Assembly: GCF_013815995.1 (NCBI RefSeq)
Contig: NZ_JACDFE010000013.1
Location: 1-36,388 of the forward strand
DNA from: Sporichthya sp.
GTDB lineage: Bacteria; Actinomycetota; Actinomycetes; Sporichthyales; Sporichthyaceae
Length of the DNA: 36,388 bases
Direction: 5' to 3'
Shown: piece after piece, positions 5,672-21,969 of the stretch
Numbering within the stretch: position 1 is the stretch's first letter
How the letters are laid out: each line of letters starts with the position of its first letter
Translations under genes and position numbers: made by a program
Notes under the pieces: generated by a model
The model's input: only the letters and a program-made list of their open reading frames with translations
Databases searched by the model: none
Told to the model about the DNA's origin: nothing

Positions 5672-5706
5672 TGACGCCCCGCCAGTGCAACTCTGACGGG
5701 GCGTCA
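5672..5706. terminator. GC-rich hairpin after the secreted repeat protein
   Basis: Arms tgacgccccgccag (5672-5685) and ctgacggggcgtca (5693-5706) pair at 13 of 14 positions around a 7-base loop. There is no T-run, which is common for actinobacterial terminators. It lies 84 bases after the stop at 5587. Confidence 0.6.
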
Positions 5707-6275: not shown

Positions 6276-6412
6276 GGTGCTCGTAGAAGCGCGCGGCTTT
6301 GTTGTGGAGCGCATCGCCAACGACGCCGAGTCCCGCCACCAGGCGAGACGCCTCCACCGCCCGGCCGAGGGCGTCCGCGAGCAGCACACCGTCGAGGTGG
6401 GGTGCCTGCAAG

Positions 6413-9163
6413 TTACGGTCCAGAGCGAGCCGACCCTCTGGTGTCGTTTGGCAGGGTGCGTTCGACGGTGTCCCCTGTCGGTGCGTTGTCGTCATGTGAA
6501 TGGACCGGCTGGTGTTGGGCTGGGAGTCGCACGGCGATGAACGCGACGTCGTCGTCAGCCGCCGGCTTCATCCGCAGTAGTAGCTCGTCGCACAGCTTGT
6601 CGAGTGGGAGGTTGGCTAGCTCTCTGAGGGTGTCACGGAGCCTGGCCAATCCGGTGTCGAGGTCCTCCCCGCGGTGCTCGATGAGCCCGTCGGTGTAGAG
6701 CAGGACGGTGGCTCCCTGATCGAGGGTGATCTCGGACTGGATGCGGGAGGTCCGCGGTTCGAAGCCGAGCAGCAGGTCGACCTCGGATCCGGGGAGGATG
6801 ACAACGTTCCCGTCGGCGTCGATGGCCATCGGCGGCGGATGTCCGGCGTTTGACCAACGCAGCCGTGTGGCACCTCGTTCGCGTTCGCTCGGGGTTTGCT
6901 CGAGGCGGGCGACGATAGCGGTCGCGGTGGTGGCGACTTGTAGTCCCTCGATTGCGGCGTCGACACCTCGCAGGACCTCAGCCGGTCCGGACCCGGTGTG
7001 CCAGGCGATGCCGCGAAGCAGTCCGCGAACCTCGACCATCGCGGCAGCGGCGGCGGTGTCGTGTCCGACGACGTCGCCGATGACGAGTGTGGTGGCGCCG
7101 TCGGGCTGGCAGAACGCGTCGAACCAGTCGCCGCCGACGGCGGCAAGCTCAGCGGCCGGGACATAGCGCACGGCAATCTCGCCATGGTTGGACTCCGGAG
7201 GGTCGGCGAGCACGAGGCGTTGCAGGCCTTCGGCGAGGCTGCGTTGTTCCGCGTACAGGCGGGCGTTGTCCAGTGCCAGTCCGGCGCGGGCTGCCACCTC
7301 ACCTGCGGTGGTGATCTCCTCGTTCGACATCAACGGCCGGGCGGCGCCGCGGCACAGGGTCAGCACTCCGAGCACCGTGTGGTGCGCGACGAGAGGGAGG
7401 ACCACGGAGGACTCCGGTGCCAGCTGCGTGATCGCGGCAATGGCCGCCGGTGACTGCAGGACGTCGAGAGCAAGTGCCATGGCGCCGTGTGCCGTGATGA
7501 CCGGCTGGCGGGACCTTCTGGCCCGATGGACCGCCGCGGGCTGCTCGACATCTTCGAGGCAATGGGCAGCAAACGCCTCGACAGCGGGCAGGAGATCAGG
7601 GTCAACATGCCAGCAGCCGACGTGCCGCAGACTGCCGTCATCGTCGACCAGCGACACCAGACACCAGTCGGCGAGCGCTGGGACAACGAGCCGAGCCAGG
7701 GCGGCCACGGCAGCATCGGTCTCGAGCGCGGCGGTGGCGAGTCCGGAGCTGACCGTGGCGACCAGTTCGAGCAACGTGGTGGCCGCCTCGGCGCGCTGCC
7801 GGTCGGCCCGCCGGGCGGTGATGTCCAGCAGGTAGAGAGCCATCCCGTCGGGGGCCGGAACCGCTCTGACCTCATACCAGCTGTCGACGTGGGGGTAGTA
7901 CGACTCGAACTCGACGGGCTCGCCCGTGGCGGCGGCGCCCTTGCACTGGAGCCCGAACTCGAGCCCCTCGAGATCCGGGAAGGCCTCCCACAGCTCGCGA
8001 CCGACCAACTCCTGCGCGGTCATCCCGACCGCGCGCTCACCGGCTGCGTTGAGGTGGGTGACGACCCACTGGCCATCCACCGACAAGAACCCGGTAGCCA
8101 TGGTGGCACGCAGGTGCGCCGCCTGGTCCCGGCCGGTGCGGACCTCAGTGATGTCATAGGCCGTACCCAGCAGCTGAACCGACGGCCCGGAGGTGCTCGG
8201 CACGGCTCGGCCGCGCACGACCAGCCACCGCTGCTGGCCACCCGGCAGATTTACCCGGAACTCAGCGCGGTAGTCCCCGACAGCTTCGACAGCCGCGGCG
8301 ATCGCTGCGTCGACCGTCGGTCGGTCCTCGGGGTGGATGCGGCTGAACGCGGCGGTGATGTGCGGAACGAGCTCGCCCGGCGCGTACCCGAACAGGGTTT
8401 GCAGCCGCTCGTCCATGCTGACGCGATCGGTGCGCAGGTCCCAGTCGAATGAGCCGAGACCGGTAGCGTCGCTGGCGAGGTCCCAGAGCAGCCGGCTGGC
8501 CTCGTAGTCCACCGACAGCGCCGACAGCTCCAGCTCGGCGATCACCGCACCGGCAAGCTGTTCGAGCAGTGCCACGTCGTGGTCCGACCAGGGCCGTGCC
8601 GAGTCGTCGAACACGCACAGCGCACCCACGGCTGCACCGCCACCGACGGTCAGCGGCACCCCGAGGTAGGCTCCCACCGCACCTGAGGCGATCGGTGGCA
8701 GATCAGCGACCCGAGCGTCGTCCTTCGCGTCGCTGATCACCAGCGGCCCACCGAACGCCGCGGCAGCGGCGCACAACGACACGTCCAACGGACCTTCGCT
8801 GCCGATGGAACCTTCGGGTAGCCCGGCTCCCCCAGCGACGATCTCGACGTCGGTCAGCAGCGAAAGTTGCACTGACGGGACGAGCAGCAAGCGAGCCACC
8901 CGTTCACACAGCCGGGCCACGGCGGCGTTCCCACCGGCCGCGGGGAGCAACCGCGCCGCCGCGGCCGTTCGGGGTAGGTCAGCCACGAGGGCACGCTTGG
9001 CCTGTTCGGCCAGGTTGTCACCCTCCGGGCCATGCGCCGCCCTCGGCCCTCGCGGGCTCGCTGAAGTCAACTGGTGCGCGGCTTGGGCATGACACTGATC
9101 CTGCCACCGCGACGAGCACGCCGCCAAGGACGACGCCCGATTAGCTGCCTGGCGCCCTGCCAT
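6413..9163 (-). CDS. Multi-sensor SpoIIE/RsbU-type PP2C phosphatase (GAF-PAS-PAS-GAF-PP2C)
   Basis: A soluble serine/threonine phosphatase of the kind that dephosphorylates anti-anti-sigma factors. Going from the N-terminus: a GAF domain (L-C-E-R-V-A-R-L-L-L to W-S-D-H-D-V-A-L-L-E-Q-L); a PAS domain (F-D-W-D-L-R-T-D-R-V, then the PAC part R-A-E-F-R-V-N-L-P-G-G); a second PAS (G-F-L-S-V-D-G-Q-W-V-V-T-H-L-N-A-A-G); a second GAF (A-D-W-C-L-V-S-L-V-D-D-D to A-R-L-Y-A-E-Q); and a C-terminal PP2C domain. Metal motifs are G-G-D-W-F-D, I-G-D-V-V-G-H-D, L-L-Y-T-D-G-L-I-E and D-D-D-V-A-F. No membrane segment. ATG 9163 is used. GTG 8986 is a strong alternative because sequence before it is low-complexity; the frame remains open to 9445, but that would cross the tRNA terminator. 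No anti-sigma kinase is adjacent. Confidence 0.85.
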   Translation of the reverse strand: MAGRQAANRASSLAACSSRWQDQCHAQAAHQLTSASPRGPRAAHGPEGDNLAEQAKRALVADLPRTAAAARLLPAAGGNAAVARLCERVARLLLVPSVQLSLLTDVEIVAGGAGLPEGSIGSEGPLDVSLCAAAAAFGGPLVISDAKDDARVADLPPIASGAVGAYLGVPLTVGGGAAVGALCVFDDSARPWSDHDVALLEQLAGAVIAELELSALSVDYEASRLLWDLASDATGLGSFDWDLRTDRVSMDERLQTLFGYAPGELVPHITAAFSRIHPEDRPTVDAAIAAAVEAVGDYRAEFRVNLPGGQQRWLVVRGRAVPSTSGPSVQLLGTAYDITEVRTGRDQAAHLRATMATGFLSVDGQWVVTHLNAAGERAVGMTAQELVGRELWEAFPDLEGLEFGLQCKGAAATGEPVEFESYYPHVDSWYEVRAVPAPDGMALYLLDITARRADRQRAEAATTLLELVATVSSGLATAALETDAAVAALARLVVPALADWCLVSLVDDDGSLRHVGCWHVDPDLLPAVEAFAAHCLEDVEQPAAVHRARRSRQPVITAHGAMALALDVLQSPAAIAAITQLAPESSVVLPLVAHHTVLGVLTLCRGAARPLMSNEEITTAGEVAARAGLALDNARLYAEQRSLAEGLQRLVLADPPESNHGEIAVRYVPAAELAAVGGDWFDAFCQPDGATTLVIGDVVGHDTAAAAAMVEVRGLLRGIAWHTGSGPAEVLRGVDAAIEGLQVATTATAIVARLEQTPSERERGATRLRWSNAGHPPPMAIDADGNVVILPGSEVDLLLGFEPRTSRIQSEITLDQGATVLLYTDGLIEHRGEDLDTGLARLRDTLRELANLPLDKLCDELLLRMKPAADDDVAFIAVRLPAQHQPVHSHDDNAPTGDTVERTLPNDTRGSARSGP

Positions 9164-9404
9164 GAACCTGCCATGAACCTGGCAGGGCCGCGTGACGGGG
9201 ACGTCCCCAATCACAAGGACGCCGCGATGCGCGCCAGGAAGTGACTCGCAGGCCCGCAACGCATCCCGGTAAAGCGAGAGCTCGTGCGTCGGCGCGAACC
9301 GTCGGCCAGGCCTCGGTCGTTCGGTGTCGACCCATTTGCAGCGCCACGTCGACAACTCTGCCACGAGGTGGCCACCGTTCTGTGGACCCTCGCGGGTTTG
9401 GCAC

Positions 9405-9436
9405 AAAAAAGGCGAGAGGCCCCCGAAGGGGCCTCT
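9405..9436 (-). terminator. Intrinsic terminator of the tRNA cluster
   Basis: On the minus strand agaggcccc and ggggcctct form a perfect 9-bp stem capped by TTCG, followed after cgcc by six T. It begins 17 bases after the 3' end of tRNA-Val. This is the clearest Rho-independent terminator in the window. It should insulate the phosphatase gene from tRNA transcription. Confidence 0.9.
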
Positions 9437-9453
9437 GACCTGCATCTTTCTAG

Positions 9454-9525
9454 TGGGCGTTGCAGGGATTGAACCTGCGACCTCTTCCGTGTCAGGGAAG
9501 CGCTCTCCCGCTGAGCTAAACGCCC
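9454..9525 (-). tRNA. tRNA-Val (anticodon GAC)
   Basis: A full cloverleaf of 72 bases. The acceptor arms are gggcgtt / aacgccc with discriminator A. The D-arm contains agctcagcgggagagc. The anticodon loop is ctgacac, giving GAC, which reads GUC/GUU valine codons. The T-loop is ttcaatc. CCA is not encoded. It is the last of three co-oriented tRNAs; its 3' end points toward the decayed island. Confidence 0.95.
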
Positions 9526-9539
9526 GGGTGGTGGTGTCG

Positions 9540-9611
9540 AGGCCGGAGCGGGAATCGAACCCGCGTACAGGGCTTTGCAGGCCCTTGCCTAAGCCACTCG
9601 GCCATCCGGCC
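9540..9611 (-). tRNA. tRNA-Cys (anticodon GCA)
   Basis: Acceptor arms ggccgga / tccggcc pair perfectly. The discriminator is U, an identity element of tRNA-Cys. The anticodon loop is ctgcaaa. T-arm cgggttcgattcccg. Length 72 bases. It lies 14 bases before tRNA-Val in transcription order. Confidence 0.95.
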
Positions 9612-9650
9612 AGGGTGTTGGGCCCTGGGGCAGCCGATCGGCCACCTTCG

Positions 9651-9723
9651 AGCGGACGACGGGATTCGAACCCGCGACCCTCACCTTGGCAAGGTGATGC
9701 TCTACCAACTGAGCCACGTCCGC
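9651..9723 (-). tRNA. tRNA-Gly (anticodon GCC)
   Basis: Acceptor arms gcggacg / cgtccgc pair perfectly with discriminator U. The anticodon loop is ttgccaa, giving GCC. T-arm cgggttcgaatcccg. Length 73 bases. It is first in the Gly-Cys-Val cluster, an order common in actinomycetes. No CCA is encoded. Confidence 0.95.
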
Positions 9724-9838
9724 GCGAGCCGCTCGATCCGAAGATCTTCGCGGTGCAGGTCGAAACAATAGCCCATCCTCAGGACCGCTTCACCGCGATT
9801 GACGCGCCGGCGGGCGGGTCGATGAGGAGGGAAGTAGG

Positions 9839-10903
9839 TTGCCGCAGGTGGACGCCGCCGAGGAGCCGCTGTTCAGCGGCGGTGGGCTGCTCGCCCGGGG
9901 GCTGCTGGACCTCACCGATGATCCGGCCGCTCTGGACTCGGGCGGCTTCTGGGCCGTCCTAGCCAGCTTCGAAGGCGCGCTGACCTGCGCCAAGTTCGCC
10001 GACGTCCGTCCCGGCACGCCGGATCCGGCCCCCTGGCGCGGGCCGCTCCGCGAGGACTGGACGAGCACGCTGGATCGAGCCGGCTACGTCGGGGCCGTCG
10101 AGGCGATCCGGACTCGGATCGCGAGCGGCGAGGTCTACCAGGCGAACCTCTGCCGGATCCTGTCCGCGCCGCTACCTGACCCCGATCGGGCGAATGTGGC
10201 CGGCCTGGCGGCTCTGCTGGCGGCCGGCAACCCGGCTCCGTACGCCGGCCTGCTGCGGCTGCCCAAGGACGGCGTGCACGTCGCGAGCGCCTCGCCCGAG
10301 CTGTTCCTGCGCCGGGCCGGGCGAGTGGTCGAGTCCGGGCCGATCAAGGGCACCGGCCGGGGGCGGGCGGACCTGCAGGACAAGGACCGCGCGGAGAACG
10401 TGATGATCGTCGACCTGGTCCGCAACGACCTCAGCCGGGTCTGCGCCACCGGCTCGGTCACCGTCCCGGCCCTGTGCGCCGTCGAACAGCACCCCGGCCT
10501 GGTGCACCTGGTCTCCACCGTCCGGGGCGAACTGCGCCCGGACGCCGGGTGGGCGGATCTGCTCGGGGCCACCTTCCCGCCCGGCTCGGTCACCGGCGCG
10601 CCCAAGCTCGCGGCCCTGGACGTCATCGCCGACTACGAGCCGGTGCCCCGCGGCCCCTACTGCGGCGCGCTCGGGTGGGTGGACGCCGACGCCGGCACCG
10701 GGTGCCTGGCGGTCGGGATCCGGACCTTCTGGCGGGAGGGCGACGTGCTGCGCTTCGGCACCGGGGCCGGCATCACCTGGGCGTCGGACCCGGCCGCGGA
10801 GTGGGCCGAGACTGAACTCAAGGCCGACCGGCTATTGAGCCTGGCGGCCGGCCCCCTCTCTTGCGTCAGCGAGAACGGTGGCTATGACGACCGATATCGC
10901 TGA
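9839..10903 (+). CDS. pabB: Aminodeoxychorismate synthase component I (PabB)
   Basis: This chorismate-utilising enzyme converts chorismate plus ammonia to 4-amino-4-deoxychorismate in p-aminobenzoate/folate synthesis. The TrpE/PabB signatures are present: G-E-V-Y-Q-A-N-L-C-R, S-P-E-L-F-L-R, G-P-I-K-G-T-G-R-G, E-N-V-M-I-V-D-L-V-R-N-D-L-S-R-V, G-S-V-T-G-A-P-K and G-P-Y-C-G-A-L-G-W. The K-G-T loop has the PabB/TrpE general-acid environment. The 354-residue length fits a stand-alone synthase subunit without an amidotransferase domain. TTG 9839 is chosen because GAGGAGGGA ends six bases before it. The gene is 30 bases from pabC. The last 18 residues are encoded by a 50-base inverted repeat, so the C-terminal tail is probably not native to the family. 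Confidence 0.9.
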   Translation: MPQVDAAEEPLFSGGGLLARGLLDLTDDPAALDSGGFWAVLASFEGALTCAKFADVRPGTPDPAPWRGPLREDWTSTLDRAGYVGAVEAIRTRIASGEVYQANLCRILSAPLPDPDRANVAGLAALLAAGNPAPYAGLLRLPKDGVHVASASPELFLRRAGRVVESGPIKGTGRGRADLQDKDRAENVMIVDLVRNDLSRVCATGSVTVPALCAVEQHPGLVHLVSTVRGELRPDAGWADLLGATFPPGSVTGAPKLAALDVIADYEPVPRGPYCGALGWVDADAGTGCLAVGIRTFWREGDVLRFGTGAGITWASDPAAEWAETELKADRLLSLAAGPLSCVSENGGYDDRYR

Positions 10904-10909
10904 CGCAAG
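10860..10909. repeat. Perfect 13-bp inverted repeat spanning the pabB stop codon
   Basis: cttgcgtcagcga (10860-10872) is the exact reverse complement of tcgctgacgcaag (10897-10909). The 24-base interior holds a further CGGT/ACCG pair. The pabB TGA (10901-10903) lies inside the right arm. It could be a small mobile palindrome, an operator for pabC, or an attenuating hairpin; there is no T-run. Confidence 0.8.
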
Positions 10910-10933
10910 GGGCGATCTCGTGGGGGACAGCGC

Positions 10934-11755
10934 ATGAAGGTCTGGCTCAACGGGGCGATGGTCGAGCGCGACGCCGCCCGGGTCTCGGTGTTCGATCACG
11001 GCTTCACCGTCGGGGACGGGGTCTTCGAGACCACCAAGGTGGTCGAGGGCCGCCCGTTCGCCCTGACCCGCCATCTGGCCCGCCTGACAACCTCCGCAAG
11101 CACCATGGGTCTGCAAGCTCCGGATCTGGACCTGGTCCGCGCGGCGGTGGAGCAGGTGGTGGAGCAACTCGGAGACACCCTCGGCCGCGTCCGGATCACC
11201 TACACCGCCGGGGAGGCCCCGCTCGGATCAGGCCGTGGGGACGCCGAGCCCACCCTGGTCGTGGCCGCCTCGCCGATGACGCCGTGGGCGGCCACCGAGT
11301 CGGTGGTGGTGGTCCCGTGGGTACGCAACGAGCGCTCCGCCGTCGCCGGGGTGAAGACGACCGCCTATGCGGAGAACGTGGTCGCGCTCGCCCACGCCAA
11401 AGCGGCCGGTGCCGGCGAGGCGTTGTTCGCCAACACGGCGGGGGAGTTGTGCGAGGGCACCGGCACCAACGTCTTCGTGGTGCGGGACGGCATCGTCCGT
11501 ACGCCGGCCCTGGAGGCCGGCTGCCTGGCCGGGATCACCCGCGCCCTTGTGCTCGCCTGGTGCCCGCAGGTCCGCGAGGAGCGGCTCACGCCGGCGGACC
11601 TCGCCGGCGCGGACGAGGTCTTCCTCACCTCGGCTACCCGCGACGTCCAGGGCGTGCACGCCGTCGACGGCCGTTCCCTCGGGAACGGGCCCGTCACCGT
11701 GTCCATTGCGGACACCTTTGTGAGGAATGCACGACTTGACCCGGATCCGATCTGA
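10934..11755 (+). CDS. pabC: Aminodeoxychorismate lyase / class IV aminotransferase (PabC)
   Basis: A PLP enzyme of fold type IV (273 residues). The Schiff-base lysine is Lys141 in A-G-V-K-T-T-A-Y-A-E-N. Other family marks are F-D-H-G-F-T-V-G-D-G-V-F-E-T near the N-terminus, the phosphate-binding L-C-E-G-T-G-T-N-V-F loop and T-S-A-T-R-D-V near the C-terminus. With pabB directly upstream its job is inferred to be release of pyruvate from aminodeoxychorismate to give p-aminobenzoate. Branched-chain or D-amino-acid aminotransferases share the fold and cannot be excluded on motifs alone, but the operon decides. ATG 10934 follows a weak GGGGGA. A strong hairpin follows the stop. Confidence 0.88.
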   Translation: MKVWLNGAMVERDAARVSVFDHGFTVGDGVFETTKVVEGRPFALTRHLARLTTSASTMGLQAPDLDLVRAAVEQVVEQLGDTLGRVRITYTAGEAPLGSGRGDAEPTLVVAASPMTPWAATESVVVVPWVRNERSAVAGVKTTAYAENVVALAHAKAAGAGEALFANTAGELCEGTGTNVFVVRDGIVRTPALEAGCLAGITRALVLAWCPQVREERLTPADLAGADEVFLTSATRDVQGVHAVDGRSLGNGPVTVSIADTFVRNARLDPDPI

Positions 11756-11805
11756 AAGATCGATATCTGAGCATTCGTCACAAGATCGACTTGTCAGGCA
11801 TAACG

Positions 11806-11837
11806 ACGGTGGGGCGTCCCGAAGGACGCCCCACCGT
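11806..11837. terminator. Bidirectional hairpin between pabC and ssgB
   Basis: acggtggggcgtcc and ggacgccccaccgt form a perfect 14-bp stem around CGAA (TTCG when read on the minus strand). It separates two convergent genes, 50 bases past pabC and 34 bases past ssgB. No T-run on either side. Confidence 0.85.
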
Positions 11838-11870
11838 GGGTTCTCAGCGCGGGCCGGACCCGCGTTGGTG

Positions 11871-12287
11871 CTAGCTCTCGGCGATCAGCTGGGTCAGGGC
11901 CGCGTCGATGTCCAGGTGGACCGACTCGGACCCGGCCGGCACCGTCGCGTAGGTGCGGTCCAGGAACGTGGACAGCTCGGGGGCCGGAGCCTCCAGGAGC
12001 GCCTCGCCCTCGGGGGAGCTCAGGGAGATGTAGACGACCTGAACACCCGCCTCGCTGGACGGCCACACGCGGACGTCGCCGAGCCCGGCGTCGTCACGCA
12101 GGCCCGCTGCGAGCAGGTCGCGGGCGAAAACCCACTCGACCGTGTCGCCGGCCGCGTGGAACGTGGCGTGGATGGCGTAGGGATCTGCAAGGTCGTACCG
12201 CAGCGCCGCGGGGACCGGCAGGGCTGCGTCGCCTGCGACCAGAAGTCGCAAGCGAAGCTCGCAGGTGACCGAAGACTCTGCCTTCAT
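11871..12287 (-). CDS. ssgB: SsgB-type sporulation septum-site protein
   Basis: A 138-residue SsgA-like protein (SALP). Recognised by its near-standard blocks: V-T-C-E-L-R-L-R-L, P-V-P-A-A-L-R-Y-D, D-P-Y-A-I-H-A-T-F-H, V-E-W-V-F-A-R-D-L-L, D-V-R-V-W-P-S, L-S-S-P-E-G-E-A-L-L-E-A-P and the C-terminal I-A-E-S. SsgB is the archetype of the family: in Streptomyces it localises with SsgA and recruits FtsZ to future sporulation septa. Its presence argues for a sporulating or morphologically complex host. ATG 12287 is preceded by GAGAGAGG at a suitable distance. It is monocistronic, as in Streptomyces. A small GNRA-loop hairpin lies in its leader. Confidence 0.93.
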   Translation of the reverse strand: MKAESSVTCELRLRLLVAGDAALPVPAALRYDLADPYAIHATFHAAGDTVEWVFARDLLAAGLRDDAGLGDVRVWPSSEAGVQVVYISLSSPEGEALLEAPAPELSTFLDRTYATVPAGSESVHLDIDAALTQLIAES

Positions 12288-12863
12288 CTGCGTGCCGTAC
12301 CTCTCTCGAATGTGCTCGGCGGTTTGCCCGGCCTCACTGGTGGGCTGCGTTTCCGCAGCTGGCCCGCCAGGGAGTCAAACCTCGCCGTGCGTGGTGGTTC
12401 TCGTTTTCTCGCTGTACAACGTCCGTCGCAACCTCAGGTCACTGTGTATCGCCATGATTCTTCGAGGGCAACGGGCGCGGGGAATCGCAATGTCCGGGCA
12501 ACGTCGGGCGGCGCGGCTCCGTTCAAGATCTATTCCCGCTACCGCGTGACATCGAACGTGTCCGATTTGTGCCGCATTGTCCTGCGTGAATACGGACGCA
12601 CCTGGCATGACGTGCTTGCGGAGGGTGCGCGGGGGCCCTCCGGTCGAACTCCGCGGCAGGGCGCTAATCGGGCAGTTGGGCGAACGCCCTAACGATCATG
12701 GTCGCGCGAAGTTTGAACTCCGCTTGGCGTGTGGAATCCAGTGCCATTGTCATGACCGCCGACGCGCCGACCGACACTTCTCGGCCACGGGGAGCACCCG
12801 TGGTGGGGGGTCCGCGCGCGCACTGCGCGCCCAAGGCTCCGGTAGGGTTGCGCTCCGCATCCC
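12288..12863. other. Long intergenic region upstream of ssgB
   Basis: No gene is supported in these 576 bases. The ssgB leader contains a 6-bp stem with a GAAA tetraloop on the minus strand (gctgcg/cgcagc, 12344-12359). The rest presumably holds the developmental promoter of ssgB, but no binding site could be recognised by eye. Short frames here have no family features. Confidence 0.5.
12843..12848 (+). promoter_or_regulatory. Possible -10 box of tRNA-Val(CAC)
   Basis: TAGGGT ends 15 bases before the mature tRNA, so transcription would start about 8 bases upstream of it. The -35 region (about 12820) is a poor match, so support is modest. Confidence 0.35.
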
Positions 12864-12935
12864 GGGCGATTAGCTCAGCGGGAGAGCGCCCCGCTCACAC
12901 CGGGGAGGTCACTGGTTCGAACCCAGTATCGCCCA
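12864..12935 (+). tRNA. tRNA-Val (anticodon CAC)
   Basis: Acceptor arms gggcgat / atcgccc with discriminator A. D-arm tagctcagcgggagagc. The anticodon stem is ccccg/cgggg with loop ctcacac, giving CAC for GUG codons. T-arm ctggttcgaacccag. Length 72 bases, no encoded CCA. It is the second valine tRNA of the window. Confidence 0.95.
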
Positions 12936-12941
12936 CTGCTT

Positions 12942-12969
12942 CACCCCACCAGCTCCACCCCACCAGCTC
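12942..12969. repeat. 14-base tandem duplication
   Basis: caccccaccagctc occurs twice head to tail just after tRNA-Val(CAC). It is non-coding and probably replication slippage. Confidence 0.7.
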
Positions 12970-13058
12970 CAGCAGTTCCATCTCGACGGGCACGACGGTC
13001 AAGCAGCGGGCCGCCCCGGGGCTCCACATCGACCGCTGCCGACATTGCGAGGCCTCGG

Positions 13059-14000
13059 GTGAGTGACTCCGTGGACGCGGCGTTAAGACCGCCGACGGCG
13101 GCGACTGCCTATGACCCGAAGATGCAAATCGTCCTGATCGAGGACGACCCGGGCGACGCGACGCTCGTGCGCGACATGCTCGACGAGGTCGAGCCGGACC
13201 TGTCGCTGACCTGGGTCCGGTCCATCGCCGAGGCTGGGCCGGCCCTGTCCGCCGAGACCCGCTGCGTCCTGCTGGACCTCGTGCTTCCGGATGCGACCGG
13301 CTTCGACGGGTTGCAGCGGGTGCTGGCGCAGGCCCCGAACGCCGCCGTGGTCGTCCTGACCGGCTTCTCCGACTCCGACAAGGGCGTCGAGGCCGTGTCC
13401 CGCGGCGCCCAGGACTACCTCAACAAGAGCCAGATTGATCCGGAGCTGCTCAGCCGCGCGGTCCGCTACGCGGTCGAGCGCCGCGCCGCGCAGGACACCG
13501 CCCGCGAACTCGCGCAGGCCGAGTCCCGCGCGGCGGAGAACACCCGCCTGGAACGCGGCCTCCTCCCGAAGCCCCTGTTGTTCGACGCGAATCTCGCCGT
13601 CGTCCAGCGCTACCGCCCGGGTCGCGACCGCGCGCTGCTCGGCGGCGACTTCTACGACGTCGTGGAGTGCGCCGACGGAGTCCTGTACGCGGTGATCGGT
13701 GACGTCAGCGGGCACGGCCCCGACGAGGCGGCGCTGGGGGTCTGCCTGTGCTCGGCAGCTCGCCGCGGGTCACCGCGGAGCTGGACGAGATTCAGGCGGC
13801 CGGGGAGCGGTGGCGCGCGGACTACGCGAGCGTGTCGATCGCCGCGGTCGCGGCGACCCCCGCCGACCAGAAACTGGAGAAGCTGCCCGAGAAGCTGGGC
13901 CGGGAGCGCTTCAATGCGGTCCGCGCCCGCGTCGACGAACTGGCCGCGTCCCTGGCGGGCGAGCGCGTCCTGGCCCGGGACCGGGTCCTGGACGAGATGA
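13059..14000 (+). CDS. Response regulator fused to PP2C (RsbU-like) phosphatase, C-terminus lost
   Basis: Residues 22-145 form a CheY-like receiver: acidic pocket I-E-D-D, phospho-acceptor Asp73 in L-L-D-L-V-L-P, Thr101 in V-L-T-G, Lys123 in L-N-K-S. Residues about 165-230 begin an SpoIIE-type PP2C domain with G-G-D-F-Y-D-V-V and I-G-D-V-S-G-H-G-P-D-E-A-A-L-G-V-C-L. Homology stops sharply at residue 230 (base 13748). The remaining 83 residues are Arg/Ser/Trp-rich and read the histidine kinase gene in the wrong frame. More than half the phosphatase domain, including the late D-D and T-D-G metal motifs, is missing, so enzymatic activity is unlikely. The receiver could still be phosphorylated. 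GTG 13059 is the annotated start; ATG 13122 (M-Q-I-V-L-I-E-D-D) is possible. Confidence 0.8.
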   Translation: MSDSVDAALRPPTAATAYDPKMQIVLIEDDPGDATLVRDMLDEVEPDLSLTWVRSIAEAGPALSAETRCVLLDLVLPDATGFDGLQRVLAQAPNAAVVVLTGFSDSDKGVEAVSRGAQDYLNKSQIDPELLSRAVRYAVERRAAQDTARELAQAESRAAENTRLERGLLPKPLLFDANLAVVQRYRPGRDRALLGGDFYDVVECADGVLYAVIGDVSGHGPDEAALGVCLCSAARRGSPRSWTRFRRPGSGGARTTRACRSPRSRRPPPTRNWRSCPRSWAGSASMRSAPASTNWPRPWRASASWPGTGSWTR

Positions 14001-15061
14001 CCCGGATCCGGGTCATCGCGGCCGGCGCGCTGTTGGCGGCGATCCTGGCCGGGCTCGCGGTGTGGCTGAGTTTGCGCCGGCTGGTCCTGGGGCCCTTGGA
14101 CCGGCTCGGCACCGAGACCCGGGTGGTGGCCGGCGGCGAGTTCGGCCGGCCGGTGACCGTCGACGGGCCGATCGAGGTCCGCCGACTGGGCGGCGACGTC
14201 GAGGCCATGCGCCGGCAGCTGGCCGAGTCGCTCGTCGAGGCGCGGCGGGCCGAAGAGGAAGCGCGGCGGGCCGAGGAGGAGGTGCGGGCCCAGGCCGAGA
14301 TGCTGGTGGCCCAGACCGACGACCTGCGCCGGTCCAACGAGGAGCTCGAGCAGTTCGCCTACGTCGCCTCGCACGACCTGCAGGAGCCGCTGCGTAAGGT
14401 CGCCAGCTTCTGTCAGATGCTGCAGCGCCGCTACCAGGGACAGCTGGACGAGCGGGCCGACCAGTACATCGAGTTCGCCGTCGACGGCGCCAAGCGGATG
14501 CAGCAGCTGATCAACGATCTGCTGGCCTTCTCCCGGGTCGGGCGCGCCACGGAACGCCTGGTGCCGGTGGACACCGGGCTCGCCGCCCAGCACGCTCTGG
14601 ACGCACTGGGCGCGGCGACCGAGGAGACCCAGGCCGAGATCGAGATCGGGCCGCTGCCGACCGTGCCCGGCGACGACGCGCTGCTGACCCAGGTGTTCCA
14701 GAACCTGATCGGCAACGCCATCAAGTTCCGCGCGCCGGACCGGTCCGCCAAGGTGTCGATCACCGCGGAACAGGAGGACGAGTTCTGGCACTTCCGCTGC
14801 GAGGACAACGGGATCGGGATCGACGCGCAGTACGCCGATCGCATCTTCGTCATCTTCCAGCGGCTGCACGCCAAGGAGGAGTACACCGGGACCGGGATCG
14901 GCCTGTCCCTCTGTAAGAAGATCGTCGAGTACCACGGTGGGCGGATCTGGCTGGACACCGAACGCAACGGTGACCCGGGCAGCGTCGTGCACTGGACGTT
15001 GCCAGTCGCACCAGCCCCCGTCAGCCTCGCGACCACTGCGGTCGCCGAAAGGAAGGTGTGA
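13748..15061 (+). CDS. Sensor histidine kinase, HAMP-HisKA-HATPase, N-terminally truncated
   Basis: Residues 1-85 are the tail of a CHASE3-like extracytoplasmic sensor (P-R-V-T-A-E-L-D-E-I, R-W-R-A-D-Y-A). One membrane helix is at 87-107, then HAMP, a coiled coil rich in A-E-E-E/A-R-R (163-200) and HisKA with phospho-acceptor His209 in A-S-H-D-L-Q-E-P-L. The HATPase_c N box is Q-N-L-I-G-N-A-I-K-F, G1 is D-N-G-I-G-I and G2 is G-T-G-I-G-L-S-L. Relatives have an N-terminal membrane helix and a full CHASE3 domain; both are missing here. GTG 13748 is preceded by GGGGG at 7 bases. The gene is three bases from the response regulator, its likely partner. The kinase core is complete and may be constitutively active or mislocalised. 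Confidence 0.82.
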   Translation: MLGSSPRVTAELDEIQAAGERWRADYASVSIAAVAATPADQKLEKLPEKLGRERFNAVRARVDELAASLAGERVLARDRVLDEMTRIRVIAAGALLAAILAGLAVWLSLRRLVLGPLDRLGTETRVVAGGEFGRPVTVDGPIEVRRLGGDVEAMRRQLAESLVEARRAEEEARRAEEEVRAQAEMLVAQTDDLRRSNEELEQFAYVASHDLQEPLRKVASFCQMLQRRYQGQLDERADQYIEFAVDGAKRMQQLINDLLAFSRVGRATERLVPVDTGLAAQHALDALGAATEETQAEIEIGPLPTVPGDDALLTQVFQNLIGNAIKFRAPDRSAKVSITAEQEDEFWHFRCEDNGIGIDAQYADRIFVIFQRLHAKEEYTGTGIGLSLCKKIVEYHGGRIWLDTERNGDPGSVVHWTLPVAPAPVSLATTAVAERKV

Positions 15062-15064
15062 CCC

Positions 15065-15499
15065 ATGGTTGCCGACCTGATCGAGGTCCTGCTCGTCGAG
15101 GACGACCCGGGCGACGTGCTGATGACGAAGGAAGCCTTCGCCGACAACAAGGTGAAGAACAACCTCAGCGTGGTCACCGGCGGCGTGGAGGCGCTGGCCT
15201 TCCTGCGCCGCGAGGGCAGGTACTCCGACGCGCCGTACCCGGACATGATCCTGCTCGACCTCAACCTGCCCAAAAAGGACGGCCGGGAGGTTCTGGCGGA
15301 GATCAAGGCCGACCCGAAGCTCGCGCACATCCCGGTGGTCGTGCTCACCACCTCCGGCGCGCACGAGGACATCCTGGGCAGCTACCGCCTGCACGCGAAC
15401 GCCTACGTCACCAAGCCGGTCGACTTCGAGCAGTTCATCAAGGTGGTACGTCAGATCGATGACTTCTTCGTAGGCGTCGTCAAGCTGCCCAGGCCCTGA
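15065..15499 (+). CDS. Single-domain response regulator (Rcp1/CheY type)
   Basis: A 144-residue receiver without an output domain. Acidic pocket V-E-D-D (12-14), phospho-acceptor Asp65 in [11 protein letters not shown], Thr/Ser in L-T-T-S about 95-97, Lys117 in V-T-K-P. The D-L-N-L-P-K-K-D-G form is typical of the Rcp1-like regulators encoded beside H-D-L-Q-E-P-L kinases. It begins three bases after the kinase stop and should be co-transcribed. It probably relays phosphate or acts through protein contacts. No terminator is seen before thrS, 95 bases on. Confidence 0.9.
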
Positions 15500-15594
15500 C
15501 CCCAGAAAGTCGGGAGAGGAGCCCGGGCCGACCTGGATAGCATCGGTGGCTGCCCGGAACTCCGGGTGACCAGCTGAGTAGTCAGGAGCACGCC

Positions 15595-17571
15595 GTGTCC
15601 GAGGTCAGCATCAGCATCATCGATGGGGCCGCCGGAGCGCAGCGATCGGTGCCGGCCGGGACGACCGCGGCCGAGCTCTTCGCCGAGGACCGGGCGGTGA
15701 TCGCAGCCCGGGTCAACGGCGCGCAGCGCGACCTGGCCCACGTGCTCGACGCGGGCGACGAGGTCGCCGGGATCCGCAACGACGAGCCCGACGGGCTGGC
15801 GATCGTGCGGCACTCCGCGGCGCACGTGCTCGCGCAGGCCGTGCAGGAGCTGTTCCCGAAGTCCAAGCTCGGCATCGGCCCGCCGATCGAGAACGGCTTC
15901 TACTACGACTTCGACGTCGAGACCCCGTTCACCCCGGACGACCTCAAGCGCATCGAGAAGCGCATGCAGGAGCTCATCAAGGCGCGGCAGACCTTCAGCC
16001 GCCGTGAGGTCTCCGACGACGAGGCGCGCGCCGAGCTTGCCGACGAGCCGTACAAGCTCGAGCTGATCGGGCTCAAGGGTTCCGGCGCGGGCGATGCGGG
16101 CGAGGGTGCCGAGGTCGAGGTCGGCGCCGGCCAGCTCACCATCTACGACAACCACCGCAAGGACGGCTCGCTGGCCTGGAAGGACCTGTGCCGCGGACCG
16201 CACGTGCCGCAGATGGGCGACATCCCGGCGTTCAAGTTGATGCGCAGCGCCGCCGCCTACTGGCGCGGCAGCGAGAAGAACCCGATGCTGCAGCGCGTCT
16301 ACGGCACCGCCTGGGAATCCCGCGACGCGCTCAAGGACTACCAGACCCGCCTCGAGGAGGCGGCCAAGCGCGACCATCGCAAGCTCGGCGCCGAGCTGGA
16401 TCTGTTCTCCTTCCCGGACGAGATCGGCTCCGGCCTGGCCGTCTTCCACCCCAAGGGCGGCACCATCCGCCGGGTCATGGAGGACTACTCGCGTCAGAAG
16501 CACATCGAGGGCGGCTACGAGTTCGTCAACACCCCGCACATCACCAAGGCCCAGCTCTTCGAGACCTCAGGTCACCTCGAGTGGTACGCCGAGGGCATGT
16601 TCGCGCCGATGCAGATGGACGGCGCCGACTACTACCTCAAGCCGATGAACTGCCCGTTCCACAACCTGATCTTCCGCTCGAGCGGGCGGTCGTATCGCGA
16701 GCTGCCGCTGCGACTCTTCGAGTTCGGCACCGTGTACCGCAACGAAAAGTCCGGCGTCGTGCACGGCCTGACCCGGGCCCGCGGTTTCACCCAGGACGAC
16801 GCGCACATCTACTGCACCCGCGGGCAGATGCGCGACGAACTCACCACCACGTTGCGCTTCGTGCTCGACCTGCTGCGCGACTACGGGCTGAACGACTTCT
16901 ACCTCGAGCTCTCGACCAAGGACCCGGTCAAGTTCGTCGGCTCCGCCGAGGACTGGGCCGAGGCGACCGAGGTGCTGCGCGAGGTCGCGGTCAGCGAGGG
17001 TCTCGAGCTGGTGATGGACTCCGGTGGCGCCGCGTTCTACGGGCCGAAGATCTCGGTGCAGGCCAAGGACGCGATCGGGCGCACCTGGCAGATGTCGACC
17101 ATCCAGTTGGACTTCAACCTGCCCGAGCGCTTCGAGCTGGAGTTCCAGTCCGCCGACGGCTCGCGGCAGCGGCCGGTCATGATCCACCGTGCGCTGTTCG
17201 GGTCGATCGAGCGCTTCTTCGGGGTGCTCGTGGAGCACTACGCGGGCGCGTTCCCGCCCTGGCTCGCGCCGGTACAGGCTGTCGGCATCCCGATCGCCGA
17301 CGAGCACCTGCCCTACCTGCGGGAAGTCGCGGCCCAGTTGCGCGCGCAGGGCATCCGGGTCGAGGTCGATGACGCCGACGACCGGATGCAGAAGAAGATC
17401 CGCAACGCGCAGAAGCAGAAGATTCCGTTCATGATGCTGGCCGGAGACGAAGACGTGGCTGCCGGCGCGGTCAGCTTCCGGTACCGCAGTGGCGAGCAGA
17501 AGAACACCGTCCCGGTGGCCGACGCGATCGCCGAGATCGTCGCGGCCGTGCGGGACCGCGTGCAGGTATGA
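15595..17571 (+). CDS. thrS: Threonyl-tRNA synthetase
   Basis: A class II synthetase of 658 residues that charges tRNA-Thr. Order of domains: TGS (1-60); the second, editing domain (tRNA_SAD) with its H-S-A-A-H-V-L-A motif and the later C-R-G-P-H; catalytic core with M-N-C-P-F-H and [12 protein letters not shown]-terminal anticodon-binding domain from P-P-W-L-A-P-V-Q. Zinc ligands are the Cys of M-N-C-P-F, the His of V-V-H-G-L-T-R-A-R and the His of M-I-H-R-A. Start GTG 15595 has AGGAG seven bases upstream. It opens the conserved block with the HIT gene 13 bases downstream. No T-box was recognised in the 95-base leader. Confidence 0.97.
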
Positions 17572-17584
17572 ACGGTCAGGCCTG

Positions 17585-18145
17585 ATGGAGCGTCAGGAGC
17601 AGGACGGGGCCGGCGTCGCTGATTCGTTCGGGCGGCTGTGGACTCCGCACCGGATGGCCTACATCAAAGGCGAGAACCGGGCGGAGGGGCACGAGCCCGA
17701 GGGCTGCCCGTTCTGCCGTATCCCGACCCTGACCGATGACGACGGGCTGATCCTGCGGCGCGGTAAGACGGCCTACGCGGTGCTCAACCTGTACCCGTAC
17801 AACCCCGGGCACCTCATGGTGGTGCCGGTCCGCCACGTCGCGGACTACGCCGAGCTGGACGCGGCCGAGTCGGCCGAGGTGGCCGAGTTGACCCGCCAGG
17901 CGCTGGTCGCGCTGCGGACCGCCACCGGCGCGCACGGGTTCAACGTCGGGATGAATCTGGGCACGGTGGCCGGCGCCGGCATCGCCGCGCACCTGCACCA
18001 GCACGTGGTGCCGCGCTGGGGCGGGGACACGAACTTCATGCCGGTGGTCGGGCACACCAAGGTGCTGCCACAACTGCTGGGGGAGACCCGCGAGATCCTC
18101 GCCGCCGCCTGGCCGGTCGACGACACCACCGCCTGGGGTCCCTGA
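17585..18145 (+). CDS. HIT-family nucleotide hydrolase/phosphorylase (Ap4A-type)
   Basis: A 186-residue histidine-triad protein. The triad is H-L-H-Q-H-V-V at residues 136-142, with His138 the expected nucleophile. C-P-F-C at 41-44 may take part in metal binding or structure. N-L-Y-P-Y-N-P-G-H-L-M-V-V-P is the usual substrate-binding segment. It matches the mycobacterial Rv2613c group, described as Ap4A phosphorylase, which also lies next to thrS and pgsA. The substrate is inferred from that group. ATG 17585 is used; longer starts would overlap thrS. Probably co-transcribed with thrS. Confidence 0.88.
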   Translation: MERQEQDGAGVADSFGRLWTPHRMAYIKGENRAEGHEPEGCPFCRIPTLTDDDGLILRRGKTAYAVLNLYPYNPGHLMVVPVRHVADYAELDAAESAEVAELTRQALVALRTATGAHGFNVGMNLGTVAGAGIAAHLHQHVVPRWGGDTNFMPVVGHTKVLPQLLGETREILAAAWPVDDTTAWGP

Positions 18146-18155
18146 CCGCGCCCGC

Positions 18156-18199
18156 CCACAACGGATGTCATCCGCAGCTGCCACAACGGATGTCATCCG
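18156..18199. repeat. Two 19-base direct repeats, each with a GGATG-T-CATCC palindrome
   Basis: ccacaacggatgtcatccg occurs at 18156-18174 and 18181-18199, a 25-base period. Each copy contains the odd palindrome GGATGTCATCC. They lie 88-131 bases ahead of the wax-ester synthase start and upstream of a candidate -10, the place of a tandem operator. The cognate regulator is unknown. Confidence 0.75.
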
Positions 18200-18252
18200 G
18201 AGCGCACCAAGATGGTCACAAGGGTGTTACTGGGCCGTCACTCTGCGGAGCC

Positions 18253-18258
18253 TAGGGT
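18253..18258 (+). promoter_or_regulatory. Candidate -10 box of the wax-ester synthase gene
   Basis: TAGGGT is followed by a purine start about seven bases on (18265), then GGAAGGGGG and GTG 18287. The upstream TTACTG (18227) is 20 bases away, longer than ideal, so activation via the repeats at 18156-18199 is plausible. Confidence 0.4.
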
Positions 18259-18286
18259 GGGAGATCGGATGGAAGGGGGCACCGCC

Positions 18287-19702
18287 GTGGCGAACTGGGC
18301 GCTGAGTCCCCTCGACATCTCGTTCCTCACCGTCGAGTCCGCCGCCATCCCGATGACCATCGGCGCGGTCGCCGTGCTGGCCGCCGAGCCCGAAGGCGCC
18401 ACCGACCGTTGGCCGCTGATCGAACTGCTCCGGACCCGGGCGACCGAGATTCCCCGGCTGCGCCGCAAACTGCGATCCGAGCTGTTCCCGCCGGTGAGCG
18501 CCAGCTGGGCCGAGGATCGCGCTTTCCGCGCCGATGCGCACGTGCGCCTTCATCACACGGTGGGCGGGGGCGGGTCGGAGGAGTTGAACTCCTGGATCGC
18601 CCGGATCATGAGTCAGCGGCTGGACCGCTCCCGGCCACTCTGGGAGCTCCACGTCCTGGACGGGCTGGCCGACGGCCGCGCGGCCATGCTGCTCAAGGTG
18701 CACCACGCGTTCCTGGACGGCCTTGGGGTCGGCGCGCTGGCGTATGCCCTGGCCGACGGCGGGTCGCCGGACAAGGTGCCCGCACCGGCCGGAACCAACG
18801 GCACGGCCAACGGTTCCGCCGGCGGGAACGGTCACCACGGCTTGCCGAGGTTCGACCCCGGCAAGCTGCTGGGCCCGTTGGCCGGGCTCGCGGACCCGCC
18901 GGCCCTGGCCCGCACGGCGGCTCGGGCGCTGTCCACCGCGACCGGCGTCATCACCCACATGAGCACTGCGGGGCCAGGCTTCCCGTTCGACACCGTGGTC
19001 TCTCCTGCCCGCGGCTTCGCGACCAGTTCGGTGGCCCTGGAGGACCTGCGCGGGCTGCGGACGCTGTGCGGGGGCAGTGTGAACGACATCGGCATCGGCG
19101 TCCTGTCCGGCGCCCTGCGGTCGTGGCTCGAGCTGCATCATTACCGGCCCGATGACACGCGGCTCCGCGCGCTGGTCCCGGTCGGCCGGGCGCGCTCAGG
19201 CAACGACGGCTCGGGCAATCACTTCTCCGCGTTCCTGCTGCACCTGCCGGTGCACCTCGCCGACCCGATCGAGCGGTTGCGCTTCGTGGCCGGGGAGATG
19301 GCCCGACACCGGGCCGCCGGTGCTGAGGGCGGTGCCGGTGCGCTGGCCGGGCTGACCAACCTGATGCCGGCCGCGGCAGTCCGTCTCGGCGGCCCGATGC
19401 TGGCCGGCGCCGCCTCGAAGCTGTTCGACATGCTGGTCACGACGGTGCCGGTGCCGCGTCCGCTCGCGATCGGTGGCTGCGCAGTCAACGAGATCTACGC
19501 GTTGACTCCGCTCGGCCCGAACCAGCCGCTCGCGATCGGCTGCTCCAGCTACGCCGGCCGGATGCACTACGGCTTCACCGTCGACCCGATCGTGGTACCC
19601 AACCCGGAACAGCTGGCCGCGGCGATCCCCGCCCAGCTGGCCGTCGTGCGCACCATCGCCGGCCTGCGCGCCCCCGCCGTCAAGGTTCCCGCCCCGCGCT
19701 GA
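18287..19702 (+). CDS. Wax ester synthase / diacylglycerol acyltransferase (WS/DGAT)
   Basis: This acyl-CoA-dependent acyltransferase esterifies fatty alcohols or diacylglycerol, making storage lipid. The catalytic motif H-H-A-F-L-D-G is at residues 139-145 of the GTG 18287 form. The usual surrounding blocks are also there: L-S-P-L-D at the N-terminus, R-P-L-W-E-L-H before the motif, and S-V-N-D-I-G-I-G-V-L-S-G-A-L-R in the second half. Length 471 residues is normal. A Gly/Asn-rich linker (about 168-184) separates the halves. GTG 18287 is preferred because GGAAGGGGG lies 8 bases upstream; ATG 18269 is an alternative. It sits between the HIT gene and the EF-G2 gene, inside a block where other actinobacteria have thrS-HIT-pgsA directly, so it was probably inserted here. 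Confidence 0.9.
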   Translation: MANWALSPLDISFLTVESAAIPMTIGAVAVLAAEPEGATDRWPLIELLRTRATEIPRLRRKLRSELFPPVSASWAEDRAFRADAHVRLHHTVGGGGSEELNSWIARIMSQRLDRSRPLWELHVLDGLADGRAAMLLKVHHAFLDGLGVGALAYALADGGSPDKVPAPAGTNGTANGSAGGNGHHGLPRFDPGKLLGPLAGLADPPALARTAARALSTATGVITHMSTAGPGFPFDTVVSPARGFATSSVALEDLRGLRTLCGGSVNDIGIGVLSGALRSWLELHHYRPDDTRLRALVPVGRARSGNDGSGNHFSAFLLHLPVHLADPIERLRFVAGEMARHRAAGAEGGAGALAGLTNLMPAAAVRLGGPMLAGAASKLFDMLVTTVPVPRPLAIGGCAVNEIYALTPLGPNQPLAIGCSSYAGRMHYGFTVDPIVVPNPEQLAAAIPAQLAVVRTIAGLRAPAVKVPAPR

Positions 19703-19714
19703 ACGGCCGCGGTG

Positions 19715-19746
19715 TCCGCGCATCCATGAGCTCATGGATGCGCGGA
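19715..19746. terminator. 32-bp perfect palindrome between convergent genes
   Basis: tccgcgcatccatgag is followed directly by its exact reverse complement ctcatggatgcgcgga, no spacer. A 13-base copy of the right arm (tcatggatgcgcg) recurs at 19792-19804, with a cgcatgcatgcg palindrome between. It lies 12 bases after the wax-ester synthase stop and 69 bases beyond the EF-G2 stop. It probably terminates both transcripts, but the extra copies are unexplained. Confidence 0.65.
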
Positions 19747-19815
19747 ACCGCGCGACACGCCGGGAAATGCCGCGCATGCATGCGGGTGTGGTCATGGATG
19801 CGCGAAACGGAGGAG

Positions 19816-21969
19816 TTAGTCCGCGGCGCGCACCTTCTCCGCGATGTGCGAGGGCATCGGCTCGTGCCGCACGTAGGTGCGGCTGAACGTGCCGGTGCCG
19901 TGCGAGAGGGAGCGCAGGTCGACGGCGTAACGGGACATCTCCAGCTGCGGCACCTCGGCCATCACCTTGGTCCGTCCGCTGCTGCCGACCGGTTCGCTGC
20001 CGAGCACCCGGCCGCGCCGGGTCGAGAAGTCGCCCATGATGGCGCCGACGTAGTCGTCGGCGACGATCACCGCGACCTCGTCCACCGGCTCCAGCAACGA
20101 CACGTTGCCCTTCTCGGCGGCGTCCTTGAGCGCCAGGGCGCCGGCGGTCTGGAACGCCATGTCGGAGGAGTCGACGCTGTGCGCCTTGCCGTCGTGCAGG
20201 GTCACCCGGATGTCCTGCACCGCGTACCCGGCGACGACGCCGCGCTCCATCTGCGCGCGCACGCCCTTCTCCACCGACGGGATGAACTGGCGGGGCACCG
20301 AACCGCCGACGACCTTGTCGACGAACTCGAAACCCGCGCCCGAGGGCAGCGGCTCGACCTTGATGTCGCAGACCGCGTACTGGCCGTGCCCACCGGACTG
20401 CTTGACGTGGCGCCCGTGCCCGCCGGCCTCCGCGGAGAACGTCTCGCGCAGCGCCACCTTGACCGGGACCGTGTCCACCGCGACGCCGTACCGGTTCGTG
20501 AGGCGATCGAGCAGGACGTCGAGGTGTGCCTCGCCCATGCACCAGAGCACCAGCTGGTGGGTGTCGACGTTGTGCTCCAGGCGCAGCGTCGGGTCCTCGG
20601 CGAGCAGCCGGTTCAGGCCCTGGGAGAGCTTGTCCTCATCGGCCTTGGAGTGCGCCACCACCGCGATCGGGAGCAGCGGCTCGGGCATTGTCCACGGCTG
20701 CATGAGCAGCGGCGCGTCCTTGTCCGAGAGGGTGTCGCCGGTCTCGGCCCGGGTCAGTTTCGCCACCGCGACCACGTCCCCGGCCACCGCGGACTGGATC
20801 ACCCGCTGCGTCTTACCCAGCGGACAGGTCAGGGCGCCGATCTTCTCGTCGACGTCGTGGTCGTCGTGCCCGCGGTCGGAGAGGAAGTGCCCGGAGACGT
20901 GGACGGTGGCGTCCGCGGTCAGCGTGCCGGAGAAGATCCGGATCAGCGAGATCTTGCCGACGTAGGGGTCGGACGTGGTCTTCACGACCTCGGCCACCAA
21001 CGGGCCGTTCGGGTCGCAGCTCAGTTCCGGGCCCGCGGTGCCGTCGAGGGCGGTGACCGAGGGAACCCGGTGCTCCAGCGGCGAGGGGAAGGCCTGGGTC
21101 ATGATCTCGATCAGTTCGGCCATGCCGACGCCGTTCATCGGGTTCACCGGGAGGACCGGGTAGAAGGATCCGCGGGCCACCGCGGTCTCCAGGTCGTCGA
21201 TGAACACCTTGAGGTCGATGTGCTCGCCACCGAGGTAGCGGTCCATCAGGGTCTCGTCCTCGCTCTCGGCGATGATGCCCTCGATGAACGCGTTGCGGGC
21301 GTCATCGATCTCGAGCTTGAGATCGTCGGACGCCTCGGAAGAGGTGCGCTTGCCGCCGGAGTAGTCGTAGACGCACTGCGAGAGCAGACCGACCAGGCCC
21401 GTCTGCACCCCGTCCGCGCTGAGACGCGGGAGGTAGGCGGGCAGCACGTTGTCACCGAATGCGTCCTGGCACATGGCCAAGACCCCGTCGTAGTCGGTGC
21501 GCCCGTTGTCGAGCTTGGTGACGACGACCGCCCGGGGCACTTCCACGGCGGCGCACTCGTCCCAGAGCATCTTCGTGGTGCCGTCGATGTCCTCGGCGGC
21601 GGAGATGATGAAGACGGCCGCGTCCGCGGCCCGCAGGCCCGCGCGCAGGTCGCCGACGTAGTCCGCGTACCCGGGGGTGTCGAGCAGATTGACCTTGATC
21701 GCGCCGTCGGCCTGGTCGACCAGGATCGGCTCGAGGGAGAGGTTCACCGAGCGCTGCTGGCGGATCTCGGCCTCGTCGAAGTCGCTGACCGTGGTGCCGT
21801 CCTCGACCCGGCCCTGCCGGCTGAGATTGCCGGTGAAGAGGAGCAGGGACTCCACGAGAGTCGTCTTTCCTGACCCGGTATGGCCGACCAGGACCACGTT
21901 GCGGATCTTGCCCGGCTGGTCGGCCTCCGGTGCCCTGCCGGAGTTCGGGTTGTTCGACTTGTCGGCCAT
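19816..21969 (-). CDS. Elongation factor G-like protein EF-G2 (FusA2 type)
   Basis: A translational GTPase of 717 residues. G1 P-loop is G-H-T-G-S-G-K-T at 29-36; G3 is D-T-P-G-Y-A-D-Y; G4 reads T-K-L-D instead of N-K-x-D. Domains II-V follow, with the domain IV block G-G-H-G-Q-Y-A-V-C-D and the C-terminal G-T-G-T-F-S-R. The switch I segment around D-F-D-E-A-E-I-R-Q-Q-R-S is divergent from true EF-G. All this matches the actinobacterial EF-G2/FusA2 group (Rv0120c), whose physiological role is poorly defined and which does not replace EF-G. Start ATG 21969 has AGGAGG seven bases upstream. It is transcribed against the wax-ester synthase and divergent from pgsA. Confidence 0.92.
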   Translation of the reverse strand: MADKSNNPNSGRAPEADQPGKIRNVVLVGHTGSGKTTLVESLLLFTGNLSRQGRVEDGTTVSDFDEAEIRQQRSVNLSLEPILVDQADGAIKVNLLDTPGYADYVGDLRAGLRAADAAVFIISAAEDIDGTTKMLWDECAAVEVPRAVVVTKLDNGRTDYDGVLAMCQDAFGDNVLPAYLPRLSADGVQTGLVGLLSQCVYDYSGGKRTSSEASDDLKLEIDDARNAFIEGIIAESEDETLMDRYLGGEHIDLKVFIDDLETAVARGSFYPVLPVNPMNGVGMAELIEIMTQAFPSPLEHRVPSVTALDGTAGPELSCDPNGPLVAEVVKTTSDPYVGKISLIRIFSGTLTADATVHVSGHFLSDRGHDDHDVDEKIGALTCPLGKTQRVIQSAVAGDVVAVAKLTRAETGDTLSDKDAPLLMQPWTMPEPLLPIAVVAHSKADEDKLSQGLNRLLAEDPTLRLEHNVDTHQLVLWCMGEAHLDVLLDRLTNRYGVAVDTVPVKVALRETFSAEAGGHGRHVKQSGGHGQYAVCDIKVEPLPSGAGFEFVDKVVGGSVPRQFIPSVEKGVRAQMERGVVAGYAVQDIRVTLHDGKAHSVDSSDMAFQTAGALALKDAAEKGNVSLLEPVDEVAVIVADDYVGAIMGDFSTRRGRVLGSEPVGSSGRTKVMAEVPQLEMSRYAVDLRSLSHGTGTFSRTYVRHEPMPSHIAEKVRAAD

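Follow-up and report, generated by a model that had tools for sequence, protein, structure and literature searches.

A probable recent deletion joining the phosphatase and kinase genes of an RsfR-RsfS-type operon out of frame in an actinobacterial draft genome

The window, which is the whole 36,388-nucleotide stretch of DNA analyzed here, is contig C42 of a 4.5-Mb actinobacterial draft assembly in 383 contigs, and it contains an open reading frame in which a phosphatase gene runs into histidine kinase DNA. The question raised by this locus is whether the junction is a real deletion and, if so, whether the operon was destroyed or rewired by it. The initial annotation had proposed an internal deletion that fused the two genes out of frame and gave a rewired signalling operon. 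The first ORF (13059-14000, with the start of the phosphatase remnant perhaps at GTG 13071, as in the same-genus genome G001) consists of 230 native residues and 83 out-of-frame residues, and Pfam Response_reg was matched at residues 24-132. The phosphatase remnant is 82% identical to residues 1-230 of the G001 protein. The features of the locus are listed in Table 1.

Table 1. Features of the operon and its neighbours in the window (G001 and G002, two genomes of the same genus).
Feature	Position	Strand	Remarks
tRNA-Val(CAC)	12864..12936	+	upstream of the operon
RsfR-like phosphatase gene remnant	13059..13748	+	receiver domain, linker and first ~45 PP2C/SpoIIE residues
GGGGG, Shine-Dalgarno-like	13736..13740	+	7 nt 5' of GTG 13748
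Deletion junction	13748..13749	.	shorter than G001 by 837 bp and than G002 by 825 bp
Truncated RsfS-like histidine kinase ORF, 437 aa	13748..15061	+	frame open throughout
Out-of-frame kinase DNA	13749..14000	+	forms the last 83 aa of the broken phosphatase ORF; TGA stop at 13998-14000
In-frame kinase ATG	13997..13999	+	overlaps, as ATGA, the stop codon of the disrupted phosphatase ORF
Single-domain response regulator, operon gene 3	15065..15499	+	intact; Pfam Response_reg; pN 0.047 vs G001
thrS, threonyl-tRNA synthetase (presumed)	15595..17571	+	downstream neighbour, kept by synteny

In G001 and G002, the intact three-gene operon was found at the same site, 5' of the gene which we take from its translation to be thrS, in the order receiver-PP2C phosphatase, CHASE3 histidine kinase and single-domain response regulator. 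The flanks in the window are collinear with both genomes at approximately 80% identity on each side, and the breakpoints coincide. Positions 9447-13751 and then 13749-27956 of the window were aligned to positions 4194827-4199123 and then 4199958-4214040 of G001, respectively. The break sits between 13748 and 13749, with ...GGGGTCTGCCTG on its left and TGCTCGGC... on its right, so the phosphatase homology ends at residue 230 and the kinase homology starts at the same base, as the initial annotation had stated. The phosphatase and kinase of G001 are 402 and 531 aa long, respectively, and their genes overlap by GTGA. The G001 phosphatase is intact (Pfam Response_reg and positions 2-189 of the 192-position SpoIIE profile), and the kinases of both relatives carry CHASE3 between two transmembrane (TM) helices, HAMP, HisKA and HATPase_c, with hydropathy peaks at residues ~17 and ~189 in G001. 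What the window lacks is phosphatase residues ~231-402, the overlap of the stop and start codons, and kinase residues 1-103. The phosphatase and the kinase are encoded in different frames, and the loss of 3 x 279 bp therefore does not bring them into register. The comparison with relatives carrying the full operon, which had been suggested beforehand, thus bore out an internal deletion with an out-of-frame fusion.

The distribution of the lesion was assessed in 95 loci (80 from genome contigs, 3 from plasmids and 12 from whole-genome relatives, a few of them redundant). The phosphatase lay directly upstream of the kinase in 83 loci, and all three genes were present in 79. In every one of the 83 actinomycete loci with an upstream phosphatase, the phosphatase alignment ran past residue 230, to at least residue 290, and the same deletion was seen in none of them. 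The genes were full length in both same-genus genomes and in same-family genomes. The missing 837 bp had no good match on any other contig of the assembly, and relocation of the missing piece was rejected on this ground. The missing phosphatase half likewise had no good match in its own genome, where other SpoIIE proteins were only about 30% identical, so a compensating paralogue of the operon was not found. The insertion of a transposon or island at the site was also rejected, because the native gene sequence continues to the very base of the junction on either side.

The initial annotation had put the loss in the phosphatase at half of the protein; 57% of it remains, yet only positions 2-32 of the 192-position PF07228 profile are matched, below the cut-off, in an incomplete PP2C domain from which the late metal-binding motifs are deleted. 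Studies have shown that SpoIIE-type phosphatases require metal-coordinating aspartates equivalent to D628, D746 and D795 (PMC5468089). The window phosphatase keeps the D628 equivalent only, and we infer that it is dead because two of the three aspartates, the D746 and D795 equivalents, were lost with their motifs. In the kinase, 57 of the ~127 CHASE3 residues (~45%) are gone. Most of the sensor domain had been thought lost, which overstates the length removed, although the remainder no longer scores as CHASE3 (no match at E<=0.1 in the Pfam profile search). The first membrane helix is indeed missing, as had been claimed: the window kinase has a single hydrophobic peak at ~89, and the counterpart of the G001 peak at ~17 is gone together with the native start. 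The C-terminal ~55% of CHASE3, TM2, HAMP, HisKA and HATPase_c are left, with all catalytic motifs in an open frame of 437 codons, which is also compatible with retained kinase function.

The window differs from its relatives elsewhere as well. Relative to G001 and G002, the coiled coil that links HAMP to HisKA is longer by one heptad (seven residues), owing to a 21-bp in-frame insertion at 14224-14290 that resembles a tandem duplication. A GAF-PAS-PAS-GAF-SpoIIE phosphatase of 1010 aa, whose SpoIIE domain is complete, is encoded 4 kb upstream of the operon (6413-9445, minus strand), within a block of ~5.8 kb (3677-9446) that is missing from the collinear G001 region and ends beside a tRNA-Val/Cys/Gly cluster. 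Its matches in same-family genomes are only 28-37% identical, and the block is possibly a tRNA-adjacent acquisition. Another block missing from G001 (3.1 kb, adjoining a yebC-like gene) contains a 986-aa protein with RTX-type calcium-binding repeats (31963-34923, minus strand).

We believe that an RsfR-RsfS-type operon has probably lost about 840 bp here through a real and recent deletion, with loss of function as the result; that the deletion itself is real, we hold to be quite likely. The main competing explanation, to which we give a clearly smaller but appreciable chance, is an assembly or binning artefact, in which the operon is intact in the organism and two ends approximately 840 bp apart were brought together by the assembler or by a chimeric read. 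The draft state of the assembly and the intact operon in every relative favour this, and so does the very high GC content of the missing coding DNA, which could have dropped out. A chimeric or mis-scaffolded join is possible. However, the sequence at the join speaks against a simple collapse. GCCTG (5 bp) is present at both ancestral breakpoints in G001, and the window join consists of GCCTG and an extra TG; a search of the breakpoints gave no in-register direct repeat above 5 bp and no inverted repeat of at least 9 bp, and a 101-bp segment spanning the junction is single-copy in the genome. A k-mer collapse is therefore unlikely, since the breakpoints share no k-mer and the junction is unique. 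The absence of the missing 837 bp from all other contigs also weighs against the artefact. Recombination between repeats was rejected, the microhomology being at most 5 bp.

A control comparison, of 0.72 Mb of the genome against 1.2 Mb of G001, yielded an alignment of ~160 kb. Indels of at least 100 bp numbered 7 deletions in the genome of the window and 6 in the opposite direction. Apart from the operon, they lay mostly at gene ends or between genes, and one (locus L230) was probably inside a small gene. No second junction fusing two genes was found in the ~160 kb, which argues against an artefact. Among the ~99 sampled orthologues, 83 were full length, 3 were split and 13 were partial, the two operon genes being 2 of these 13. 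An assembly full of such joins was rejected within the ~160 kb, though a few genes are partial or split, for example at L230 2300-3500 (G000:C16). That site has a split gene and a partial one compared with G001, with a 46-bp overlap at the junction, and is possibly another place of local decay or recombination.

The age of the lesion was estimated from pairwise pN/pS and relative-rate counts between the window and G001 copies, with two same-family outgroups; synonymous sites were near saturation against the outgroups, and the relative counts alone were used. The unique changes in the window and G001 were 2 and 2 with one outgroup and 1 and 3 with the other in the PP2C stub, 10 and 10 and 11 and 10 in the CHASE3 remnant, and 11 and 8 and 6 and 7 in the kinase core, respectively. 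The relative-rate counts against G001 thus gave no relaxed selection or excess amino-acid change in the remnants, and an old pseudogene was rejected. Because the remnants change no faster than in G001, the deletion either took place long after the species split or is not real; that the remnants evolve like intact genes is also a point for the artefact. The argument for a real deletion is further weakened by a draft of one isolate, in which the lack of excess change fits a very recent event and an artefact equally.

If the deletion is real, double-strand break end joining would be the likely route, because microhomology at the junction does not exceed 5 bp, 2 extra bases are present there and two Ku proteins are encoded in the genome, so that end joining may be available to the host. 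Intragenic deletions made by Ku/LigD end joining in actinobacteria similarly show little or no microhomology and additional bases where the ends meet, in hosts with Ku genes; here, there is one event.

Judged from its genes, the intact operon matches the RsfR-RsfS type, which is already known. In Mycobacterium smegmatis, the operon rsfR-rsfS-MSMEG_6128 encodes RsfR, a phosphatase of the receiver-PP2C type whose substrate is the phosphorylated anti-anti-sigma factor RsfB and which thereby controls SigF, and phosphorylation by the CHASE3 kinase restrains RsfR (PMC10950880). Both the kinase-to-receiver phosphotransfer and the control of STAS dephosphorylation have been shown in that species (PMC10950880). 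The gene order and the CHASE3 kinase with two TM helices are shared with the ancestral operon of the window; unlike in M. smegmatis, the phosphatase and kinase are both truncated, the operon lies between tRNA-Val and thrS instead of beside rsfB-rsbW2, and gene 3 is receiver-only, whereas MSMEG_6128 is described with a helix-turn-helix. As a stand-in for the M. smegmatis proteins, we used a Mycobacterium aquaticum locus (L126), which aligns with G001 over the full length at ~44-47% identity. At 7687-8528 (minus strand) of L126, rsbW2-like and STAS (rsfB-like) genes, assigned by inspection of their translations, converge on the same three-gene operon; this linkage matches the published M. smegmatis layout and is absent at the operon of the window. 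The RsbK-RsbY pair of Bacillus cereus likewise has a CHASE3-containing kinase that controls a receiver-PP2C phosphatase acting on an anti-anti-sigma factor (PMC10950880). By domain make-up, RsbK differs in being a hybrid kinase that also contains GAF and receiver domains, and RsbY is activated when phosphorylated (PMC10950880). The genome of the window encodes STAS proteins on contigs C323, with an adjacent anti-sigma-like ORF, and C256, and three SigB/F/G sigma factors above the cut-off, so a target for a partner switch exists, although none of the STAS and sigma factor genes is adjacent to the operon.

The next explanation is a functional rewired operon, in which a signal-blind kinase constitutively phosphorylates the gene-3 regulator and the receiver remnant serves as a phosphate sink. 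We consider it very unlikely. It had been suggested that GGGGG before GTG 13748 may permit a kinase start, and this part held up well. The GTG was created by the junction itself, with G from the left side and TG from the right, and its anti-Shine-Dalgarno duplex of -9.1 kcal/mol is equalled at 5% of the 60 start codons nearby and is as good as that of the native G001 kinase start (-9.4 kcal/mol). The kinase motifs and the response regulator are intact, and the ATGA overlap at 13997 offers a second start. The duplex at ATG 13997 is an ordinary -5.0 kcal/mol, and the overlap is fortuitous, because this ATG is conserved among relatives as an internal Met. Translation could begin at either codon, and re-initiation at ATG 13997 would possibly yield a TM2-HAMP-kinase protein. 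Neither product has TM1, and correct membrane insertion is doubtful for a single helix behind an N-terminal tail of ~85 residues without a leader. The ancestral GTGA coupling of the two genes is also gone. In M. smegmatis, a CHASE3-less RsfS with only the kinase domain gave partial complementation, which favours a rewired operon, yet the response was lost, and the deletion of MSMEG_6128 had no effect on SigF (PMC10950880). No signature of selection for the retention of the broken form was found by pN/pS or relative rates, and the formerly extracytoplasmic segment is neither accelerated nor newly constrained. The deletion of rsfR abolished most SigF induction in a cytochrome aa3 oxidase (respiratory) mutant (PMC10950880). 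Because of the rsfR and truncated-rsfS phenotypes in M. smegmatis (PMC10950880), loss of function is predicted instead of a useful rewiring, and the proposal of a rewired signalling operon was not supported. Slightly more improbable still is a real, fixed and functional allele in which the sensor-less RsfS feeds only the gene-3 regulator and another phosphatase, such as the SpoIIE protein at 6413-9445, dephosphorylates the anti-anti-sigma factor.

A receiver-kinase fusion protein made by -1 frameshifting, or by an unrecognised 2-bp sequence error at the junction, is hardly credible: the kinase is read in frame -1 with respect to the phosphatase, there is a G5 run a short way upstream and, from the breakpoints, pure GCCTG recombination would keep the frames aligned, but inspection of the sequence revealed no tandem slippery heptamer, TGA at 13700 closes the kinase frame and confines slippage to a short stretch, and cytoplasmic domains would flank one membrane helix on both sides.

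We therefore return to loss of function by a recent deletion. On this reading, the deletion took away the catalytic majority of the phosphatase as well as the native start, first TM helix and front part of CHASE3 from the kinase, leaving the genes in different frames. The kinase would be made weakly or not at all and, from GTG 13748 or ATG 13997, would be signal-blind; if it is made, the gene-3 regulator may receive unregulated phosphate. The net effect would be the loss of regulated anti-anti-sigma dephosphorylation in a partner switch of the SigF/BldG type, a stress-response circuit that has most likely been shut down, and by analogy with M. smegmatis, this branch is expected to be uninducible whatever the kinase does.

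A single lesion in one draft genome carries small weight: either the module is one that a cell can do without, or the draft is wrong at this point. The lesion is probably a recent null, or else an error of assembly, in a signalling operon of known type. The operon was identified as the widespread RsfSR type, which is held together in dozens of the examined actinomycete loci, and the window presents a natural double-truncation allele that is comparable with the engineered rsfR and rsfS truncations.
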